Below, piece by piece: positions 4,501 through 57,018 of a stretch of 64,000 bases of DNA. Every line of letters starts with the position of its first letter. Position 1 is the stretch's first letter. The notes beneath the pieces are model-generated. The model made no database searches and was not told where the DNA came from. It saw nothing but the letters and a program-made list of their open reading frames with translations. The stretch lies in the NCBI GenBank assembly GCA_903813345.2, contig CAIIXF020000011.1, positions 24,730,166-24,794,165 on the forward strand, written 5' to 3'. This DNA is from Owenia fusiformis. Its lineage: Eukaryota; Annelida; Polychaeta; Sabellida; Oweniidae. Position numbers and translations under genes: made by a program.

Positions 4501-7176
4501 GGTCTGGTGTATTAATCTAGAGATGGAACAGGTATAAGTACAGTACAGATAGTAGTCCATAGTAGTTGAAATAGTAGTCGACCCTCAAGTCAATTTATAT
4601 CAGTTCTTGATGATGTTAGGTCATGCTACAGTTGATAAGTTAATGGGGAATTAAAAGAAAAGTGAAATTACATGTGAGATGAGCAGAAATGTTCTCCTGA
4701 TAATTCCCATACTTTCTTTTTATGATTTTATTTAGAGTGAGACATACTGACATAACTAACATTTAGTCACTAAGCTTGTATGCCCATTATGGGCAGATTA
4801 GAATTAGTCATCTGGAGCAATATCTCTAAAACATTGTGCATAACCTTTTATAAAATTCTGAATTTATTTGCATTTTAATATTAAATTTTGGCAGAATTTT
4901 TAGCAATTGTAATTAACAATATTTATGAGAGAGGGGCCATTGACTAATAAACTTCGACCTTGAACACTACATAGACTTATACAAACATGCTAAAACAGGT
5001 CTTACAGTTGTCCCCAAATTAAACACTTCAACTAACTTCACATTTTTCAATCTCAAGTCATCTCACCATGCCTTCCCTTGTGAGTGCAGTTTTGTTCACA
5101 TTTTCTTGTTATATTGCAGAAACATGATCTCATGAACCATGTTGCCCATCAGACCATTGTAATGCAGTTCATCCTGGAGTTGGGAAGACAGACAGAGGTT
5201 GACCCCAGAGGTTGTATCCGACCATTCTTCTCTAGGTACAGAGATCACGATAGTTGAAAAAACTTGTTAGCCATTGTGGCTAAATCTTCCAAAAAATTTT
5301 TCGCCAACCAAAATATGAATTAGCCATTTTGAAAAACCGTAAAAAAGGGAACATTAAAATGATCCAATGTCTGATGATGACAGTTTCACTTTCAGTTTCA
5401 CTTTTCAAAATCATATTCAGAAATAAAAAAACGTCAATTAAAATTGAATGTAAAGCATCTGCCGCGAATGTGATCGGCATTTCACATAGTCTGCACGGTG
5501 TAATATCACCAATTCGTTTATCTTGTGATATCGGAGTCCCAAAATACTTCCAAACTGCCGACTTTTTCGACTTAGATGCCGGCTCGATTTTTCAATTTCT
5601 TTCCTACATCCGGCATACTGATAATGCACTCGATTTGCGAACGACGATGAAGAAATTTACGAACAAGTATTACCATCTACCTGAAATCGCGGGTCCGTTA
5701 ATAACACTTTTCAATGCAAAGAAGTGTAATCTAGGTACGAGGTAAGTGAAAATATTTAATTTTTCAGAACGAAATAGGAGGTGTTCCTCGCTATTTATAC
5801 ACGTTTTTATGCATTTTGGGGAAGGAATGTATGTACCGATATTAACCCTTTCTGTCCCATGTCCCGAACCGAAGCATCCGGACCGAAATTCGGTCCAATA
5901 TCGGGAAACCGTGACACTCCTAATTCGCCATAACTGCGAAATACCTTTACATATTTTTCGCCACCTCTTTCGAAAATTCGCGATTGGCGAATGGCGAACG
6001 TCTACCGTGATCTCTGCTAGGTATGAATGTAACGCACATTAGATATATATTTCATCACAATAGACCTTTCCAATATACCTTTTGATACATCAAAAAAGTT
6101 AATACATTGAGTAGATTGTATGCAGCAATCTGCAAGCAAAGAATAAGATTACCTTATTATTAATTTAGAAAATTTTCAAATTTCAAAAGGTGGCAGGATT
6201 AATTGAAAAGAACGATTAGAAGGGGTCTTAGTTAGCTTCAATTTTCTCCACTAGATGGCTAACTTTGGTCTGATAACCTTTTGAATTTAATTGTATAAAC
6301 CTTTACTCTGGCTTTTATTTCATAATCAAACAGGTAGAAAACATATCTTAAGAGTCATGTGACTTGATCTAACAAGTCATATCAGTCAAATATGGTCACA
6401 TGATCACTCAGATGCATGATGGGAACATAAATCCAAGTGCATAACTGTGTTTAAATAATTGTTTACTTCAGAATCAAGCTGGCAGAGCAGACATATCTTG
6501 ATGCATTCAATGATGAGTTGAATAGCTTTAAAGAGAGGATCCGTAAGAGAGCTAAGGAAAAGCTTGACAAAGCCATGAAGGAACTAGAGGAAGAAGAGAG
6601 GGAAAAGAGACTGGGACCAGGTGGTCTTGACCCTGTTGAGGTCATGGACTCACTGCCTGAGGTATGAAATTAAAGCAACATGTTTTGATACTTTTAAGTC
6701 ATAGTGTTGAAGGAGGCATAATTAATGTAAAAATTGGAAAAAAATCAATAAGCATTTGGTGGCCAATTGTTCAATGTTGCCCTTTTTCCAAATGCAAACT
6801 AATATTATTGAGAATGGAGATGGCATGTTACAAATGAACTGCTTTAAACATTAGATAGGTTTTAATGACAGAATAGCCTGATTCTATCCCCTTCTGAAAA
6901 ACCTGATGATGTAGATAAGGGGTTGAAGCAAGACTGTAGTAGTGCATATTTTGCAAGTTTGTCTATTTGATATTGCAGGTTTTACAAAAGTGCTTTGAGA
7001 GCAAAGATATTCAGCAACTACAAGATGCCCTGCTTGCAATGCCTAAAGAAGAGGCAGAGCTTCATTTAAAACGCTGCATAGACTCAGGACTTTGGGTCCC
7101 CAATGCCAGGGAAGCTGATGAGGCTGCATCAGGGGAGGGGGGACAACAAGAATCTGAGGAAGGAAGAGGACAATAA
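1536..7176 (+). CDS. CDC37: Hsp90 co-chaperone Cdc37 (5' partial, nine exons)
   Basis: Cdc37 loads protein kinases onto Hsp90 in the cytosol. Exons: 1536-1669, 2419-2476, 3277-3381, 3633-3683, 4032-4091, 4373-4531, 5120-5235, 6472-6661, 6979-7176 (TAA). All introns are GT-AG and all joins keep frame, giving 356 codons; with about 11 missing N-terminal residues the total is near 367, against 378 in human. Diagnostic stretches are [13 protein letters not shown] (the family CK2-target serine) with [13 protein letters not shown], then a charged coiled coil (exons 3-6), [25 protein letters not shown] and [15 protein letters not shown] (Hsp90-binding middle domain), [18 protein letters not shown], and [11 protein letters not shown] near the C terminus. 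The Leu of HDLM matches the known Hsp90-contact leucine in human. The first exon (about MVDYS...) is not in the window. Exon 8 ends exactly where a transposon is inserted. Identity is secure; the exact donor used at exon 8 is the only doubtful border. Confidence 0.96.
5239..6016. mobile_element. CAG-ended DNA transposon inserted at the CDC37 exon 8 donor
   Basis: The element begins CAGAGATCACGATAG and ends with the inverse CTACCGTGATCTCTG, a 15-bp terminal inverted repeat with one mismatch. It is flanked by a perfect 7-bp target duplication, CTAGGTA, at 5232-5238 and 6017-6023. Length is 778 bp. It is less AT-rich than its surroundings and holds open frames of 138 and 98 codons (5329-5745 and 5746-6042, plus strand), which resemble no transposase I know. 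It is probably a non-autonomous or decayed element. The CAG ends recall hAT elements, but hAT normally makes 8-bp duplications, so the superfamily is unsettled. Confidence 0.85.
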
Positions 7177-12189: not shown

Positions 12190-15100
12190 TCACTTCACAT
12201 CATTTTGCGATGCATTCTGGATACTTGAGTGCTCCTCTGAGATTGGCAACAATGAAGCTGTACGATGAAGTCCAGGACCAGGGGGGCTGATGGTCGGACT
12301 CCTCCCTTGGGCAGCCATTGAGGGCATTGAGGCTGTTCGCCGCACACCAGCAGGGGGAGGGAGAGCAGCAGATTGAACAGTGTAGTCGGAGGTAGGGTTG
12401 TACATCTGGCGATATTTATTGCGCTCATTCCGAGGTGGACTGAACACGGATGTGTAAGTCTGGAACAAAAAATAAAATAGAGTTGAAAATAATTAGGTTA
12501 AAGGCATCAGGTTAATATATGAATTCTGTCCTAAAACATTATTTACATGGCTGTTTCCCAAAATGGATTGAACTGAGAGGGTGCTTCCATCCTTTCAGAA
12601 ATTGATGTACGAGGGGGGATTCATAAGTAGTGAGACAAATGCTATAACTTCACTTATATCAACCAGATTTTATTCAAACTTGGAACACAGAACCACAAAC
12701 ATGTGATAATCATTGTGTGAAAATTTCAAAAAGTTACACCCAACTTTAGTAAAGTGAGAGTTCCAATCATGACGTCACAACAGGGTCCACGGAGCACATT
12801 GTTTGTCACTAATTGCTAGTTAAATATAAAAGTCTCAACTGATATTCAGGACATGATCTAATCCGTGATTTTTAGCGAGTCCTTTTGAGGAGCACATCAA
12901 TTCTATGCAAGACTTTTGATTTCTTATCCTTCTGGTGCAGTCTCACTCTTTCTCAAAGTATTCACCATGACAATCAATGCATTTTTGGCATCTCCTCAAC
13001 CATTCTAGGTATGCACCCTCAAAACCATATTTTCCAAGATTAGTCATCTCGGCTCTCACAGCATATTCAGAATACATATACAGAATACCACCTATATACT
13101 GTAGATTTTTTTACTTCTTGTTTCCCATAGATTTCCAACAAACCTCTATAGGTCTCTAATACTGAAAACTTCTTCAAAGCATCAAATTTAATCACAACAC
13201 GGATGTTTATACGTGATTCTTGCCTTTTTATTGCTATTTTAATCAAATTTTGCTCCATCCAAGAAGGACTGAAAATGGCAGTGTCCTGATGTCAATGCTT
13301 TGTGTGACATGATGTGTAGCATGATGATGTAATATATGTTACAGTTGTCATGACTACAAGGCTTGAGACAATATGAAACCAAATATTTGAAAATAACTGT
13401 CATTTTGAGATATTTATGAGCATATTTATGTTGATCAAGCCCTTCATTTTTTAACTGCTCCGTTAACCCCTACTTTTGGTTACCATAGCAACCGTTGTTG
13501 CTAGGGAACAAAATGAATTAAATTGAAATTTCACAAAACAATGCCTTATATTCTAGTCCGTTCATGTGCCAAATTTGGTTGAGATATGTACACAGGGACT
13601 TGCTGCCTCAGAAAAGTCCCACTACTTATGAATCCCCCCTCGTACGTATGCTGAGAAGTCATGAGGAAGTTTTACTCAATCCAAAATCTTATTCATTAAG
13701 ATCTCGTAAGCAGCAAAACAATATATATTTCTTTTTCCTATTCAAAGGGTGTCGGAGGGTCTATGTGTCTCAGAGTACAGTGTACTTCATATAATACAAT
13801 TTGATTTGCTTGGTTATTTACTTTTGCATCTTAATTATACACTAAATATATCATGAGTGGGAAATAACCTACCCCATCCTGACTACGAGGTAACAAGTCC
13901 TCCTGGTCCTGCGGGGATGACTCTATTGGGTGAAATATGACCAGCATGACACCTATTGGCAGGAGGAACTTAATCACCATAAACGTCCCAAACACTGGTG
14001 AGTAGATTTCCTGCATGTGATTCTGAAATGGTTAATATATCAGTTGAGTATTGGCAGATTCCAGCATTATTCATCATTATGGATATTACCGTTGTCTCAT
14101 ACCGCAACTTTGATTTCTTTTGTATTCATTTCTTCATAATCTAGTGGGCATCACTGCATGACACAAATTGCATGCAATTCTTTAATGCAAAGAGGTATAT
14201 CTAGCAATTTAATTTCCTACTCATTTCACCTCTGTACAATTTTGTATTGATGATATTTATCTTTAATTTTGACATAATTTGGGTTTTATACATGTTATCA
14301 TTGAAGCTATCAAAAACTGCATCAAAAGAATAATTAAATAAAAGCAAAATTGAATAAAAAAAATAAGATTTTATCGAGATTCTTAAGAAAATGTTCCTTT
14401 ACTTACAAATATACCACTGCAACCTTTTGTTTCATCCCCCACTGCAAATAAAATATTTACAAATAAATGATCATTCACTTTAATCTAACACAAAATGATT
14501 TGTATCATTATGATTATTATACTTCACTCACATGATATCAACTTGCCTATATTTACATAAGTTCTTATACTTTGAGTTTGAAAATATAAATTAGGAATCA
14601 TACTACTGTTTTGAACAATTTCTTTCGTTCAATGTTAAAAAGATTCCATTCAAAACTGACCAAAATATCTGAATATTATATGATGTCAAAATCATTCTCA
14701 ACTGAGTGCAAAAAGCTCTGCTTTAATGCCTGGAAGATGAAAACTATATCTTTTGACTTCATTCCTTACTACAATCGTATAATAATGATATCTGCATTTC
14801 ACTTACATGCTTGGAGAACTATATCATAGACCATCCCAAACAATGCAGACAGCTCAAATGCCCCAATTATGCTGCAAAAGAAACATAATGCAATTATGAA
14901 TACGCACAGCCCTGGTCAGAAGTGACAAAGGTTGGCCAGGGCCCTCGTATGGGGGCCATATTGAACTCGGCATAGCCCTTGATTAATACTGTAGAAATAA
15001 GATGCTTCGTGCACAAAAAAGTTATAAAGTTGTCACAGTTTTGCTCTGATTTGGCACTTCCTGAACATAACTATCCATTAATTTCACTCTAGTTTTTTCT

Positions 15101-18100
15101 TACCTCCACAAGTCACGTTTCTGTGCCCTTCGTACAGATTCCAGCGTGCTTATCTCATTGAGTCGACGTGTTATGTAGAATCCAGCTAACATAAACACCT
15201 GGACAAGAGCAAACTCTGCTGCCGACATCATAATCCAATATGGCTCTAGAATAATGTAAAATTAAAGACTGTCATGTAATAATGAACTGATATAATAAAA
15301 TAGTTTTCTCTGAAAAAATGAATAAAGCTGTTTAAAACTATTATATAAACAGAGAGATGAACTTACATAGGACTGTCAGGAAGTTTTCATTGATCTTATA
15401 TACAGTGGTAAAGAATTCCTAGGACAAATTAGGTAAATAATTTCAAACAGTTATACCTTGTAATGTGAAGATTTTCTGACTTTTGATCTAAAATTACTCG
15501 AAGTTTAGGTTGCATGACGACAGGACTCTTCCTCAAATCATCTCATTTCTAGTAATTATATTGTCCTTTCAATGCCTCATGGGCAAGAAGCTTGTAATAC
15601 AAAAATATAAAATAAAAGTAAACAGAGAGAAATTTAAATCTCACCTAAGCACTCTACAAATGTTGTCTTAACTTGTGTGATACCCAGTAGAGCTACAACA
15701 GTGAAGTATATATAGGCCACTGTCAGACATGGCAGTAACACCCTGGAAAACATAAGCATCATAATAGATCATACAGGGTGCTTAATAAGGATTGCAGGCC
15801 AACTGATCAAAACTGAAATTGATTGGAAACTGGGGCTTTCTCAACAAGACAAAAGGAATTAAATTGTATGTGATGTTTAGAAGAAAGTATTTCATGAAGT
15901 GTAAACAACTAAAGGCAGCCAGGGCCTAAAGACCTGTTTAAGACACGATTGTCAATAAATTATAAAATAAAAAAAATATATATATACAGTAGAACCTCCT
16001 AAGTGGAACACCTCTGTAAGTGGAACACCTTACAAGTGGAACAGTGTTTTTAAAGTCCCATGGCAAATTTATTCCCATAAGTGAAATACCTCACAAGTGG
16101 AAGACATTTCTGTGGTCCCAAGGGTGTTCCACTTAGACAGGTTCTACTGTAGGTCTTACTCTTTAAACTCCTTACCAATTAGTGAGCCTCTCGCGCTTTA
16201 GCACTCTTGTGGCAAGCATCCAGTAGAAGTGAGATACAACAAGAAACTGTGTCAACTTCAAATGCTGCATGACAAAATCCATCTGAGCAAACTTTCCAAG
16301 CATCCAGTGTACACCACTGCAATTGAAAATTCAAATTCAGATTTTCTGAGATAAGACAATTGTTTATTTTCAATCACCTTTGCAATCTTTTTACATATGC
16401 AATCTAGCCTACAAATCATGATTCCTTTGGTTTCTTTATTATAATTTTATACTGTTTAGGTGGATGAATTTTACAAGCGAGAAGTCAATTTTTCTAGTTG
16501 ATAATACAAAGGGGGTTTGATAGATTAAAAATGGAGGAACATTACAGTATAGAGAATAAAATAGACAAATCTAAACAAAAAACCTCGTGAATAGTGTTTA
16601 GAGATGATGTCACACATGATGTTTGTATGAATATTTATATTAAATAAAAATGTTGTAAGTCAACCTAACCTAATATTTTCTTCAGACTAACAAAACAGGT
16701 ATAACTGCATTCAGTTGAATGTCGAAACTAAACCCATTTTGTGTAAACCTCAACATGCAGTCTCAGTTTACATTGTCAGAAAATAATTGTGTACCGTATA
16801 CTCACCAAATAGCACACTCGACTGCGGCACAATAGAATATAATATACTGGTGTAGTGTAGGATGGCGGTTCATATGCAATGTATACTCACCAAACTGCAC
16901 ACTCGACAGCAGCACAATAGAATACAATATACTGATGTAGTGTAGGATGGCGGTTCATATGCAATATATACTCACCAAACAGCACACTCGACTGCGGCAC
17001 AATAGAATATAATATACTGGTGTAGTATAGGATGGCGGTTCATATGCAATTGTATACTCACCAAACAGCACACTCGACTGCGGCACAATAGAATATAATA
17101 TACTGGTGTAGTGTAGGATGGCAGTTCATATGCAATTGTATACTCACCAAACAGCACACTCTACAGCGGCACAATAGAATATAATATACTGGTGTAGTGT
17201 AGGATGGCAGTTCATATGCAATTGTATACTCACCAAACAGCACACTCTACAGCGGCACAATAGAATATAATATACTGGTGTAGTGTAGGATGGCGGTTCA
17301 TATGCAATGTATACTCACCAAACAGCACACTCGACAGCGGCACAATAGAATATAATATACTGGTGTAGTGTAGGATGGCAGTTCATATGCAATTGTATAC
17401 TCACCAAACAGCACACTCGACTGCGGCACAATAGAATATAATATACTGGTGTAGTGTAGGATGGCGGTTCATATGCAATGTATACTCATCAAACTGCACA
17501 CTCGACTGCGGCACAATAGAATATAATATACTGGTGTAGTGTAGGATGGCGGTTCATATGCAACGTATACTCACCAAACAGCACACTCGACTGCGGCACA
17601 ATAGAATATAATATACTGGTGTAGTGTAGGATGGCGGTTCATATGCAATGTATACTCACCAAACTGCACACTCGACTGCGGCACAATAGAATATAATATA
17701 CTGGTGTAGTGTAGGATGGCGGTTCATATGCAAGGTATACTCACCAAACTGCACACTCGACTGCGGCTCAATAGAATATAATATACTGGTGTAGTGTAGG
17801 ATGGCGGTTCATATGCAATGTATACTCACCAAACTGCACACTCGACTGCGGCACAATAGAATATAATATACTGGTGTAGTGTAGGATGGCGGTTCATATG
17901 CAACGTATACTCACCAAACAGCACACTCGACAGCGGCACAATAGAATATAATATACTGGTGTAGTGTAGGATGGCGGTTCATATGCAACGTATACTCACC
18001 AAACAGCACACTCGACAGCGGCACAATAGAATATAATATACTGGTGTAGTGTAGGATGGCGGTTCATATGCAACGTATACTCACCAAACAGCACACTCGA

Positions 18101-20099
18101 CTGCGGCACAATAGAATATAATATACTGGTGTAGTGTAGGATGGCGGTTCATATGCAATGTATACTCATCAAACTGCACACTCGACAGCGGCACAATAGA
18201 ATATAATATACTGGTGTAGTGTAGGATGGCGGTTCATATGCAATGTATATACTCACCAAACAGCACATTCGACTGCGGCACAATAGAATACAATATACTG
18301 GTGTAGTGTAGGATGGCGGTTCATATGCAATGTATACTCACCAAACTGCACACTCGACTGCGGCACAATAGAATATAATATACTGGTGTAGTGTAGGATG
18401 GCGGTTCATATGCAATATACTCACCAAACAGCACACTCGACTGCGGCACAATAGAATATAATATACTGGTGTAGTGTAGGATGGCGGTTCATATGCAACG
18501 TATACTCATCAAACTGCACACTCGACTGCGGCACAATAGAATATAATATACTGGTGTAGTGTAGGATGGCGGTTCATATGCAACGTATACTCACCAAACA
18601 GCACACTCGACAGCGGCACAATAGAATATAATATACTGGTGTAGTGTAGGATGGCGGTTCATATGCAGCTTGATGATCTTCAGTACGCAGAACAGACCGA
18701 TTACAGTTACAAATAAAGTCATTACACCATTCCTGGAAGATAAGATCCAAATAACATAAAATAAGAGTTTGGGACAAAAACTTTGAATTTTCATCAGAGA
18801 CATAATGGGGGTTCTGAATAAGAAATAATATGATCTGAAATTATCCTGATTTGTGGCATCTTTTTGAATTTTAAATTAATTTTTTCTTAAACACAGAACA
18901 AGCTACAGAAAGTAAATAAGAGACAACTGGGTACAAAGCAACTTCAGAGTAGCGAATCCCACCAAACAAAACATTTTCTATCAAATCACTCCTCTTTTAA
19001 ACTTTTCATGATAGTAAAAAAATAATATACAAAGGAACAATGGAAACAGTGAGACTTTTTCGATGTTATAAGTTCTTGGAAGTCGAAGATGATCCGTACC
19101 CTAGTGATAACATCTTAACATTTCGCTCCAATTCTGACATTTACATGACACTTTCACAACAATATTTTTGACATGACATTTATTTGCAACATATGTGACC
19201 TTAAATTAGGGTTTAGATACAAGATTATTTCACAAAAGAAAACGTATCTACAGATGCTTAATACATACTTTACTTAAGGCTAAGCTGAGGTTGCCATGAC
19301 AAAAACACCAATAAAAACAGTTTCATATTACTTACTAAAATTATAGAAATTTGGTAAAACTTGTCAAATAAAACCTGTTCAATTCAACATCTGATCTATT
19401 CAGTCTGTTAACAAAATATCTGAATAGTTGGAATTTGATGTTACTAATATTTTCAATATAGCCATTTACAAACTTACAACTTTTGAAAATTGTGGCTCGA
19501 CAAGCTGATCTTGTGAAAGTTCAATTTAAAGTTCATTATGTTCATTACTAAAGCAAAATGATGGCACAGTGATTTTCAATGAAGTCTCACGACCTCTGTG
19601 CTCACATAATAATCTCTATATGCAGGGGTTACACTAGAATTTCTCACAACAGGCTAAATAAATGAAAACAACAAGTCCATCAAAACAGGTCCTGTAGCCA
19701 GGGGGTTCGACCCCCCGCCCCCTCCCGACAAAATATCCTTCCAGAATCATGCAGTTTTTCACCATTCTGAGCTCTTTTTAAGTGATTTTTGCCATTTTGG
19801 ACCAAAATTGTCAAAAGGTGAACCCCCTGGAATTTTTCAAAAAGTGAACACCCCTTTGGCAAATCCTGGCTATGGGCCTGAACACACTGACAGCCATATC
19901 AAGAATCAACCTGGACCCAGAAGATCTTTGAATAAAAAGTGTATGTATATGTATACCTGATGCATGCAATTGTATGAAAGTTGTCAAAGCAGCCCTGTCC
20001 CATGATGTCAGCTGTATTGTTGTTGATGGGTGATAGGTTCCTTGCAGTGACAGCATCCTTCCCAGGAGCCGATGTAACATGGGATAGCAGCACGTCCAT
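12190..20099 (-). CDS. Seven-pass membrane protein, unassigned family (nine exons)
   Basis: Exons in transcript order: 20099-19957, 18732-18595, 16316-16176, 15742-15645, 15245-15104, 14871-14807, 14441-14407, 14022-13873, 12459-12190. Every join is GT-AG and in frame, giving 393 residues. An in-frame TAA lies just before the ATG, fixing the start. Predicted membrane segments are at about 50-70, 79-100, 113-132, 142-162, 176-197, 222-241 and 262-284. The N terminus has NLS and NNT sequons, which suits an outside N terminus. The last 110 residues are polar, with RRTASMP and HRTASLLP, resembling basophilic-kinase/14-3-3 motifs. The layout recalls GPR137/TOM1-type seven-pass proteins, but I do not recognise the family. 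Exon 2's 3' end is amplified in the next intron, and a mariner sits in the last intron. A 5' UTR exon is likely, since an acceptor-like TATTTAG precedes the start exon at 20112. Confidence 0.85.
12610..13642 (-). mobile_element. Deleted mariner transposon
   Basis: The 1033-bp element is flanked by TA dinucleotides (12608-12609 and 13643-13644). Its inverted repeats begin CGAGGGGGGATTCATAAGTA and are nearly perfect over 27 bp, typical of the mariner group. It lies in the last intron of the membrane-protein gene, and its transposase remnant is in the same orientation as that gene. Confidence 0.92.
12943..13258 (-). pseudogene. Mariner transposase remnant (N- and C-terminal pieces only)
   Basis: The N-terminal piece (13258-13067) starts MEQNLIKIAIKRQ and shows the helix-turn-helix region of mariner transposases with KKSTVYRWY. 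After a stop and frame change, the C-terminal piece (to the stop at 12943) ends CQKCIDCHGEYFEKE, close to the usual mariner C terminus. The catalytic DDD core is missing, so the copy cannot make an active enzyme. Confidence 0.85.
15987..16149. mobile_element. Pogo/Tigger-like miniature element
   Basis: 163 bp with inverted ends CAGTAGAACCTCCTAAGTGG and CCACTTAGACAGGTTCTACTG and a TA dinucleotide on each side. The interior repeats AAGTGGAACACC-like blocks. It has no coding capacity. A relative with an internal expansion is at 56628-57018. Confidence 0.8.
16796..18668 (-). repeat. 22-copy, 85-86-bp tandem array carrying exon 2 ends and splice donors
   Basis: Read on the minus strand, each unit contains about 72 nt identical or nearly identical to the 3' end of exon 2 of the membrane-protein gene (encoding HMNRHPTLHQYIIFYCAAVE), followed by its donor, TTTG/GTGAGTATAC. 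The unit next to the true exon is copy 22 and ends at 18595; the last is at 16806. Three copies (near 17480, 18165 and 18510) change the donor GT to AT. The array contains no acceptor. Splicing at any donor other than the first would run into TGG TGA directly after the exon and truncate the protein after the second membrane segment. Confidence 0.95.
18669..19685. other. Exon 2 start and intron 1 of the membrane-protein gene
   Basis: The unique 5' part of exon 2 runs to 18732 with acceptor TATCTTCCAG just beyond. The rest is AT-rich intron in which I see no other feature. Confidence 0.6.
19686..19880 (-). mobile_element. GGCCCGTAGCCAGG-family miniature element, copy 1
   Basis: The ends are CAGGTCCTGTAGCCAGG and the inverse CCTGGCTATGGGCCTG. 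The interior on the minus strand holds CAGAATGGTGAAAAACTGCA followed by TGATT, shared with copies at 30625-30811 and 45683-45872. It has no coding capacity and lies in intron 1 of the membrane-protein gene. Confidence 0.8.
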
Positions 20100-30624: not shown

Positions 30625-30811
30625 TTGCCCGTAGCCAGCTTTTACCAGGGGGAGCTTTTTTCCAGGGGGGGAGCTTTTTCACAATTTTGGCTAAAAATCA
30701 TGCGAAAAATTCTCAGAATGGTGAAAAACTGCATGATTTTGAAAGAATATCTGGCCGGGGGGGGGGGGGAGAGCTTCCGCTCCCCCAGCTCCCTCTCTGG
30801 CTACGGGCCTG
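30625..30811 (+). mobile_element. GGCCCGTAGCCAGG-family miniature element, copy 2
   Basis: The ends are TGCCCGTAGCCAGC and CTGGCTACGGGCCTG. The interior contains CAGAATGGTGAAAAACTGCA and a run of G. It is in the opposite orientation to the copy at 19686-19880. Confidence 0.8.
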
Positions 30812-33190
30812 CTATACTATACAGTATATCAAAAACACAACTCACAAGTCATAAAGTGGCTTTGCCTCGTCTAGTTTTTTTCCTCGGATAGATATTCTGG
30901 CATATCTACCTCATGGTCATCCAGTATTTGTTTAAATATTACTGATAATCTCAAAAGATAATTGACATTATTGAATCTTTTATCATATAAGAATAATATC
31001 GAAGAAACATGATAAATTTAAAAAGTTTAAAAACAAAAGAGTATATTTATTTTAGGAAATTTTAACTTTTTAGAATCAACCTGCTTGGTCATCCAAATTT
31101 CCCCTATGACATAAATATACACAAGTATGAAATAAAACATCAAAAATAGTTCTATTATTGAAGTCCTACTTTGTCAATAAAGTTTATATCAGCTCCATTT
31201 ATAAATAATTAAAACAAAATATCTCTTGAAAGCCCATATTTTAATCTATATAGGGTGATATATGCAACATCTATCAACTTTAGTAAAAAGCATAAATCAT
31301 CCAGTCAAACAGCTATTAGAAATGGAACGGCAAACGCTATCTCTAAATTGACTACAGGCAAACCAATTTTCTCCCAAATACTTTGTGACTATTGATTTTC
31401 TACCCTAGCTCTTTATCAGCTAGCCACACTCTCTATCCTCTGACTATGGCAAATGGTTACATAGATTTTATATTGCTAATGCAGAAAGTAGAAAAATGTA
31501 GTGTTATGCTCTAGGGACATACTAGATATAGTACCCAGGATTTTTCAAGGGAGGTGCGTTTACATCCCTGGGTCTACATCTATATCTCCACATCATTGTT
31601 CTTTCCTCCCAGTTTCTTTCTTTTCAGCACCTGAACAAAATTTCCAGGAATTGACTCAAAAGGGGGGGGGGGGGCACGGTTGCACCTAATGCCAATGTAC
31701 CTCCCACCTTTGGTACACCTACACCGCCAATCCACACACTAAAGTCACTGTACCATACAGTACATTGGTATACTGTTCAAGGTACTGTACAATACCATGT
31801 TAGTCTACGGTACCAAACGGTACCATGTTTTAAAGAGTCAAGAGAGAATAGAGTACTGGTATTTAGGTATTGATTTTTGCATCACTGTCCAGGATCCTCT
31901 TTTTCTAATAAGAAATCAAGTCTCAAAGGACCCATTGGGAATGAAATGTTTGGCTGAGATAAATGAGAACATGATTCTATTAAAGAAGGTCCTTTAGCAT
32001 TAGTTTATGTAGCTAAATGTCCCAACTGTTCTTATATTGCTATGCAGGTCTTCAAGGTTGTCAAGATCTAGGTTCAAACATCAAAAAATGCTTAAAGGGG
32101 CAACAAGGCCTGTAAAGAGAAAATGGAAAATTTTAACTTTTTCTGAGCTGAAATAATGTTTATCTAGGGGGTTTCTTTGTAGATAATAAGTCTTGATGAA
32201 ATATCCAAACTTAAATATATTTTGATACTGGTCCATGATCGTTGAATCATGAGTTGCACCCTGCACTAGTTGTTGCAACAATATTGCAACACAAAGACGT
32301 CAAGACGTCTCATAGTTAAAATATCAAAACTTATTTTACGAAATCAATTTACGGTATATTTATAAAAACAATTTCTTCATATGGTGTAGCCCTATGTAAC
32401 AGTAAATCTATGGGAGGGAAAAGAACATAACACTGATGAGGAAGAGAGTGAGTAATTCTAGTCATAAAAATCATAAAAAATGTTTGCTGAAAGAGACTGC
32501 AGAAGTAAATGCAGCCTAGGGCTCCCCCTTTTGTGGGCCCCAAACAAAATATTTACCCTGAAATGAGCCTTGAAAGTAGATACACTGTGATAAATATGTC
32601 ATCTCACAGACTCATAATTGCTTAGACAACAATACAGACATACTCAATCCCTATAGCTGTTTTACTTCATATAATGAAATTGGTACAGTCTGACCAAATA
32701 TTTTAAAGCAGTTAGCATTTTGTTTTATTATGTGGCTAGATTTAAAGTAAAATGTAATAGACCAATAGAACTTTCGGTCAACAGCCAGAAGGAAAATAAG
32801 TAATCAGTATAATAAGAAGCCCCATGAAATGTAACAAATAAATCACAATAAAATAATAGATCCTTTATATCATTTTTATAATTCTTATACTTCTCATACT
32901 TATTTATTTCAAGAGAATGTTTTTGAACTTTCTTGTTCCTTTATCAGCTCTTCTTTGAACTAAACTGAGAATAGGAACAAATCACTGTTGTGAAGAGACT
33001 TAAGAAATGCTACACATCCCTGTTATAAACATCCTTGGGAAATGCAAAAGATCACATTAATGAATAACCCCTGCAACAAATGCAACAAATCACTGTTATA
33101 ACAATCTCAAGGAAATATAACAAATCATTGTCATGAAATATTCCCAAAATGCAACAAATCACTGTCTCTGTAAGAAAGATCCACAAAAAT
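30812..33190. other. No gene seen
   Basis: AT-rich sequence with a long G run near 31665 and short repeats of GGTACC/TACGGTACCA near 31745-31830. From about 32975 degenerate AACAAATCACTGTTAT-like monomers lead into the tandem array at 33191. Confidence 0.5.
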
Positions 33191-33661
33191 ACAAGAAATC
33201 ACACTTGAGTAATAGACATGCCTTGGTAATGCAACAAATCTGAGTGTTATGAAATGCCCCCAAAATGCAAGAAATCACACTTGAGTAATAGACATGCCTT
33301 GGTAATGCAACAAATCTGAGTGTTATGAAATGCCCCCAAAATGCAAGAAATCACACTTGAGTAATAGACATGCCTTGGTAATGCAACAAATCTGAGTGTT
33401 ATGAAATGCCCCCAAAATGCAAGAAATCACACTTGAGTAATAGACATGCCTTGGTAATGCAACAAATCTGAGTGTTATGAAATGCCCCCAAAATGCAAGA
33501 AATCACACTTGAGTAATAGACATGCCTTGGTAATGCAACAAATCTGAGTTTTATGAAATGCCCCCAAAATGCAAGAAATCACACTTGAGAAATAGACATG
33601 CCTTGGTAATGCAACAAATCTGAGTGTTATGAAATGCCCCCAAAATGCAAGAAATCACTGT
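33191..33661. repeat. 76-bp tandem repeat, about six copies
   Basis: The motif ACACTTGAGTAATAGACATG starts at 33201, 33277, 33353, 33429, 33505 and 33581, giving an exact 76-bp period with very few differences. Each unit contains two related half-units (ATGCAACAAATC and ATGCAAGAAATC). Diverged half-unit copies extend from about 32975 to 33790, so this is a recent higher-order amplification of an older satellite. Confidence 0.93.
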
Positions 33662-45682: not shown

Positions 45683-45872
45683 CTGGCCCATAGCCAGCTA
45701 AGGAGAGGGGGTCAGATTTTGTAAATCCAAGGGTATACTTTATGACAATTTTGGCCCAAAATCACCCGAAAAGTGCTCAAAATTATGAAAAACTGCATGA
45801 TTTTGAAAGAATTTTTGGCTAGTGGGAGTGAGATGTGGTTCATTCTGAACCCCTTTCCCTAGCCACGGGCCT
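45683..45872 (+). mobile_element. GGCCCGTAGCCAGG-family miniature element, copy 3
   Basis: The ends are CTGGCCCATAGCCAGC and CTAGCCACGGGCCTATAG. The interior holds GAAAAACTGCATGATTTTGA as in the 30625 copy. Confidence 0.75.
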
Positions 45873-56627: not shown

Positions 56628-57018
56628 CAGCAGAAACTGCTAATATAAGAAAAACAGGTTTTAAAAGTCCTTTGGCCCATTGACTCATTGTTAATGATCT
56701 AGCTCCTGTATGTTGAACACCTCACAAGTGGAATAGGTTTTTAAAAATCCTATAGCCCATTGACTCCATGTTAATGATCTAGCTCCTGTGTGTGGAACAC
56801 CTCACAAGTGGAATAGGTTTTTAAAAATCCTATAGCCCATTGTCTCCATGTTAATGATCTAGATCCTGTATGTGGAACACCTCACAAGTGGAATAGGTTT
56901 TTAAAAATCCTATAGCCCATTGACTCCATGTTAATGATCTAGCTCCTGTATGTGGAACACCTCACAAATGGAACATTTTTTTGCAGTCCCAAGGGTGTTC
57001 CACTTACAGGTTTTACTG
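56628..57018. mobile_element. Pogo/Tigger-like miniature element with internal 80-bp tandem repeat
   Basis: The right end CCACTTACAGGTTTTACTG and the left end CAGCAGAAACTGCTAATATAAG-like border are each next to TA and resemble 15987-16149. The middle is a near-perfect 80-bp tandem: TGTRTGTKGAACACCTCACA starts at 56707, 56787, 56867 and 56947. The left end is less sure than the right. Confidence 0.7.

Follow-up and report, generated by a model that had tools for sequence, protein, structure and literature searches.

A tandem array of 22 copies of a coding exon end and its 5′ splice site in a gene of the annelid Owenia fusiformis

The window analyzed here is a stretch of 64,000 nucleotides from the genome of Owenia fusiformis (assembly GCA_903813345.2, contig CAIIXF020000011.1, positions 24,730,166 to 24,794,165). 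Its minus strand carries a nine-exon gene, referred to below as the host gene, and a tandem array that begins inside coding exon 2 of this gene and extends into intron 2. Each unit of the array is a copy of the exon end together with the first nucleotides of the intron. All positions are those of the window.

The host gene and the array at its second exon

When exons 1–9, with ends picked by eye, were joined, they were in phase and gave one open frame of 393 amino acids (aa) plus a stop, with GT...AG at all eight introns. The nine-exon frame confirms that the repeat lies at the end of exon 2 in the correct exon frame, as a preliminary description of this DNA had proposed. A crude hydropathy threshold marked six hydrophobic segments in the protein, and it is because of this hydropathy that we label the product a probable membrane protein. 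It had no Pfam match at E values up to 1, and a PDB search with it returned no significant relative (best E 0.38). For exon 1 and the start codon, the open frame is the sole support.

Tandem Repeats Finder (TRF) placed the minus-strand array at 16796–18667, with a period of 85, 22.0 copies, and 96% matches. Cutting the minus strand at each GCATATGAAC produced 22 head-to-tail units of 83–87 bp (Table 1). Furthermore, when up to three mismatches were allowed, a 30-base probe hit 22 places in the window, every one within the array and none elsewhere, whereas 100 shuffles gave no hit. The head-to-tail arrangement and high identity are those of a minisatellite, as is the unit length of 85 bp, which lies within the range of 15–100 bp given for this class in the abstract of PMC3618361. 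These results bear out the earlier claim of 22 tandem copies of an exon end plus its donor. The span assigned to them, 16796–18732, needs correction at its start: the repeat begins at 18665–18667, and 18732 is the start of exon 2.

Exact-match scans for the unit in viral and genome contig collections returned nothing, a result of little weight because it is to be expected with animal DNA, and no RNA families or tRNAs were detected in the window. The array was also considered as a coding region in its own right and rejected, as the stop-to-stop frames of at least 50 aa confined to it and its 3′ flank reached only 50–62 aa.

Table 1. Features of the host gene and the repeat array (a slash within sequence marks the splice boundary)
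Feature	Position	Strand	Description
Coding region of host gene	12190..20099	(-)	Nine exons, 393 aa + stop
Coding exon 2	18595..18732	(-)	138 nt; repeat unit 1 occupies its final 71-73 nt; phase agrees with exons 1 and 3
Exon 2 borders	18732 / 18595	(-)	Acceptor ...CTTCCAG/G; donor TTG/GTGAGTAT
Intron 2	16317..18594	(-)	2278 nt; contains 18 further intact donors
Coding exon 3	16176..16316	(-)	Acceptor ...CAATTGCAG/T
Repeat array	16792..18665	(-)	22 units: exon-derived 71 nt + tail of 12-16 nt
Unit 1	18581..18665	(-)	True exon end and presumed functional donor, GT at 18594-18593
Unit 2	18496..18580	(-)	ATGAGT, donor lost
Unit 6	18156..18240	(-)	ATGAGT, donor lost
Unit 11	17731..17815	(-)	TGT-to-TGA in exon frame
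Unit 14	17476..17560	(-)	ATGAGT, donor lost
Unit 22	16792..16876	(-)	Final unit, continues into single-copy intron (GTGAGTATACGGTACAC)

A stretch of intron 1 of the host gene (19714–19878) has two further matches in the opposite orientation at 30660–30769 and 45685–45816, with 71–73% identity, and is probably an interspersed repeat. Intron 8 holds an element of about 1 kb (12607–13645) with 30-bp inverted ends that are 97% alike, and which has the look of a mariner-like transposon.

Donors in the array and the outcome of their use

An intact donor, TTG/GTGAGTAT, is present in 19 of the 22 units within the 11-nt sequence TTGGTGAGTAT, and the remaining three (units 2, 6, and 14) have ATGAGT in its place. 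The unit list thus agrees with the preliminary count of 19 intact donors and three GT-to-AT mutants. In a rough weight matrix built from the gene's other seven donors, the array donor scored 9.7, a value reached by 0.3% of the 3253 minus-strand GTs outside the array. The donor of exon 1, at 19957 (CAG/GTATACAT), was the weakest of the gene's eight, and the acceptor of exon 3 scored best among the gene's eight acceptors, each under a small model.

Only one of the 19 intact donors, that of unit 1, preserves the 393-aa frame. Seen from this first donor, the extra units are all intronic, so that a pre-mRNA spliced there and at the acceptor of exon 3 would still specify the whole protein. Each of the 18 later intact donors, when joined to the same acceptor, gave a frame that stops after 94 codons; the frame is the same each time, since the exon is continued in frame by TGG TGA. 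Use of a later donor would lengthen exon 2 by 170–1789 nt and place the stop right at the old boundary, 166–1785 nt upstream of the junction, so that the immediate stop foreseen earlier was found for every later intact copy. Nonsense-mediated decay (NMD) acts on stops that lie more than about 50–55 nt upstream of a junction, and all of these stops exceed that distance. The later-donor transcripts are therefore predicted NMD targets, if the organism follows that rule.

What, then, would favor the first donor? The folding of exon 2 plus unit 2 was no better than that of shuffled sequences (z = +0.94; 167 of 200 shuffles were at least as good), and the mean unpaired probability of the unit 1 donor (0.15) was not outside the values for the remaining 18 GT units (0.10–0.35), with the three AT units at 0.36–0.39. 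Predicted folding consequently does not explain how the first donor would be chosen, and masking of the later donors by RNA structure was rejected. On the principle of exon definition, a preference for the first donor would likely come from transcription order and from exon length, which is 138 nt with the first donor and at least 308 nt with the later ones.

Could the later donors instead serve to regulate the gene? In such a scheme, the 18 downstream donors would compete for the U1 small nuclear ribonucleoprotein (snRNP) and the exon 3 acceptor, and a controlled share of the transcripts, set by copy number, would be diverted into stop-containing mRNA targeted by NMD. The shared 11-nt donor, in the top 0.3% of the 3253 outside GTs, is consistent with this, as is the common 94-aa truncated frame with its stop 166–1785 nt before the junction; in addition, two downstream repeat units of human IFI6 are reported as donors in a passage of PMC4526556. 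On the other hand, the donor has been lost from three units and is not preferentially conserved: its core, from −3 to +8, was variable at 1 of 11 sites compared with 11 of 68 for the remainder of the exon-derived part (P = 0.45, with the more variable tail from +9 on set aside). Selection on the donors was thus unsupported, the core being no better conserved than the exon part, and we regard a regulatory array as quite improbable. The preliminary description had offered a decoy, a kinetic trap for U1 snRNP, or a splicing switch, and no test favored any of these, with the donor core not preferentially conserved, three donors lost, and predicted folding not singling out the first donor. As for telescripting by U1, intron 2 has two AATAAA motifs, at positions 16440 and 16368, and each is downstream of the array.

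The array also contains 90 AGs. In 14 of the 22 units, the GCA form of one alanine codon, absent from unit 1, creates an acceptor-like site (...TTCTATTG, then T or A, then GCCGCAG/T) that scored 1.6–4.4 in a model resting on only eight acceptors, namely those of the gene, which themselves ranged from −0.6 to 13.0 when each was left out of its own model. Between 3% and 8% of 3246 background AGs matched or exceeded the array scores. The preliminary statement that the array brings no extra acceptors was therefore too strong, as these sites are passable, and their use in splicing is nonetheless unlikely. If used, they would pair with the preceding donor, whose start lies 67–70 nt away, and remove mini-introns of that length, leaving microexons or trimming the array ahead of the main splice. 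The spacing and the 14 scored sites fit such intron-internal splicing, but 3 of the 14 pairs start from a lost donor (units 2, 6, and 14), a 16-nt microexon would disrupt the frame, and unit 1, the only unit scanned, had no match to the simple branch-point consensus yTnAy. We consider this explanation very improbable.

Whether first-transcribed, exon-defining, or intron-proximal donors win would be visible in RNA, because all donors but the first are unproductive. With 19 donors identical over 11 nt before one acceptor, the locus can be read as a natural experiment on how a 5′ splice site is selected.

Origin and turnover of the units

Of three unit junctions inspected, two read GTGAGTATACG/T/TGCATATG, that is, intron, T, and exon (the slashes here separate these parts), and in the third ACA replaces ACG. 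At the end of the array, GTGAGTATACG runs into GTACAC, giving GTGAGTATACGGTACAC; the exon sequence ahead of unit 1 is AAGCTGCATATG. We took the ACG tail as ancestral because units 1 and 22 carry it. On this assumption, the array would have been founded by a tandem duplication that shared or gained no more than about 1 nt at its breakpoint; had the leucine codon CTG originally been TTG, no added nucleotide would be needed. Element ends and target-site duplications were sought only by reading these junctions.

The units differ by a mean of 3.86 of 87 columns per pair, 7 of the 231 pairs are identical, and 17 distinct types occur among the 22 units. Unit 1 shows no difference from units 8 and 9, and units 15–19 have local variants in common. 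Seven characters were informative, namely six sites and the tail class, and of the 21 pairs that they form, 9 showed all four allele combinations, one of them being a pair of sites just 12 bp apart. Exchange of tracts shorter than a unit, which is probable here, would leave such a pattern, although recurrent mutation could also create it or contribute. With identical non-adjacent units, local clusters, and four-combination pairs, the array is a mosaic of variant repeats. Similarity to unit 1 showed no gradient along the array (Spearman 0.09, P = 0.71); polar growth outward from the exon is thus not indicated and was rejected. Higher-order periodicity was set aside; of the 12 lags tested, only lags 2 and 8 gave weak signals (P = 0.03 and P = 0.048, respectively, uncorrected). 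The loss of the donor in units 2, 6, and 14 may reflect either spread or repeated mutation.

The copy number of such arrays is difficult to assemble, and the identical pairs (7 of 231) would suit an assembly artefact in which the true number is one or a few, or many more. However, the 17 types in 22 units and the variants locally common to units 15–19 make an assembly error hard to invoke, although they do not guarantee the exact count, and we find an artefact very improbable.

Taken together, the array is best explained, and in our view with good probability, as an ordinary young minisatellite that happened to include a donor and that is tolerated, since the first donor remains usable, as a mostly neutral passenger; among the options in the preliminary description, this one is the best supported. 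An 85-bp segment across the boundary of exon 2 and intron 2 would have been tandemly duplicated, as the junctions suggest, and slippage or unequal exchange would then have raised the number to 22 units; the variant pattern suggests that tracts shorter than the unit were probably exchanged as well. The splice from the first donor to the exon 3 acceptor would be the one actually used, transcripts from later donors would be unproductive and probably removed by NMD, and the array would persist as a passenger, possibly at some cost in splicing efficiency. TRF listed 16 rows for the window, five of them with a period of at least 25 (2999 bp in all), four besides the present array, and the chance that one of the five covers a splice site of the host gene is about 0.07.

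Several observations weigh against this explanation. The figure of 0.07 is crude, as it assumes random founders and counts only the 16 splice sites of the host gene, and it is not strongly reassuring. Competition among donors could well lower the output, use of the first donor being deduced from the frame, and 19 of the 22 donors are still intact. Moreover, the 69 coding nucleotides carry 11 changes, of which 6 are synonymous, 4 are replacements, and one is a stop (TGT to TGA, unit 11). The synonymous ones are GCT/GCA at two codons, GTC/GTA in two units, and GAG/GAA, CAC/CAT, and GCC/GCT in one unit each. Variable sites at codon positions 1, 2, and 3 number 3, 1, and 7 of 23 each, so that third positions are over-represented (7 of 23 versus 4 of 46; Fisher P = 0.027), and the synonymous share of 6 of 11 exceeds the expected 23.5% (P = 0.026, or P = 0.023 when change types were dealt among like bases). 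A purely unconstrained array would not predict such a bias. When the two GCT/GCA sites were counted once, because their contexts are similar, the synonymous share became 5 of 10 (P = 0.07) and the third-position test gave P = 0.053. The preliminary description had noted many third-position differences besides replacements and one stop, which is what we found. The synonymous excess is weak (P = 0.023 to 0.07), and these tests were not blind, having followed that remark. The excess fits copying between the array and a selected exon end, or chance, and is suggestive only.

Such copying, with sequence passing repeatedly in both directions between the array units and the selected exon end, is compatible with the minisatellite explanation and refines it. 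If true, it would explain the synonymous bias, and the array would preserve earlier states of the exon. The identity of unit 1 with units 8 and 9, the synonymous excess (P = 0.023–0.07), and the pattern fitting sub-unit exchange all point this way. However, units 1, 8, and 9 may just retain the ancestral state, similarity shows no gradient toward unit 1 (Spearman 0.09, P = 0.71), and the bias is based on 11 sites. The absence of a private allele in unit 1 carries little information, as the same holds for 17 of the 22 units over 79 gap-free columns. We judge copying between exon and array unlikely. A further step, in which the end of exon 2 and its donor evolve in concert with the intronic minisatellite and donor copy number tunes the loss of pre-mRNA as a 5′ splice-site rheostat, would be more doubtful still.

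The locus also shows that the end of a coding exon can be subject to minisatellite turnover. Even as no more than a tolerated passenger, the array would be a clear example of a minisatellite that starts on a splice boundary without destroying the frame.

Elsewhere in the window, two further tandem repeats were noted. An 80-bp minisatellite at 56659–56973 overlaps sequence that is 70% like a stretch of host intron 3 (16014–16152), and it may have grown from an interspersed repeat. At 33186–33658, TRF found a 76-bp repeat with 6.2 copies and 98% matches, which by eye is embedded in longer degenerate ATGCAACAAATCAC-like repeats. On the plus strand, an open frame at 6943–7173 matches the C-terminal region of Cdc37, a co-chaperone of Hsp90 (PDB 2n5x, E 2.9e-16), and a Cdc37 gene is probably present near the host gene.

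Comparison with known systems

Three systems share part of this anatomy. In the model of intron gain by tandem genomic duplication (Rogers 1989; Hellsten 2011), as outlined in a passage of PMC4974935, a duplicate turns into an intron and leaves the peptide unaltered; the cases given there include 24-bp AGGT repeats in fission yeast and the potato RdRp. Coding sequence and splice signals are tandemly duplicated in that model as they are here. However, in the present case an existing intron was lengthened, the donor had presumably been functional beforehand, and there are 22 copies. The host gene model requires no new intron, and acceptor-like CAG sites exist in the units. Intron 1 of earthworm metallothionein genes likewise contains tandem units, which are classed as minisatellites by length; in passages of PMC12783039, these units are not said to include an exon end or a donor. 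For duplicated 3′ sites, a passage of PMC5389562 links simultaneous occupancy to poor splicing, and by this analogy a splicing cost from the array is plausible here.

The closest relative is a human gene. Turri, Cuin and Porter reportedly described, in 1995, a minisatellite that provides multiple donors in an interferon-induced transcript (human 6-16, IFI6); this minisatellite lies at an exon end and has a unit of 12 bp. Among the few papers listed by literature searches for minisatellites or variable number tandem repeats that bear donors, it was the only example seen. According to a passage of PMC4526556, two downstream repeat units serve as donors and give three mRNA species, and the splice variants are said to encode different protein isoforms. 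The likeness is that minisatellite units carry donors, 19 of 22 units in our case, with unit 1 supplying the real donor of exon 2. The units differ, ours being 85 bp with 71–73 coding nt, and so do the products: the isoforms are coding in IFI6, whereas here all 18 later intact donors lead to a stop after 94 codons. The array is consequently not of the IFI6 type in full, as coding isoforms are not predicted, and the shared donor anatomy is unaffected by this. What is new here, relative to the known donor minisatellite, is a mostly coding unit, present in 22 copies, whose later intact donors are all unproductive.

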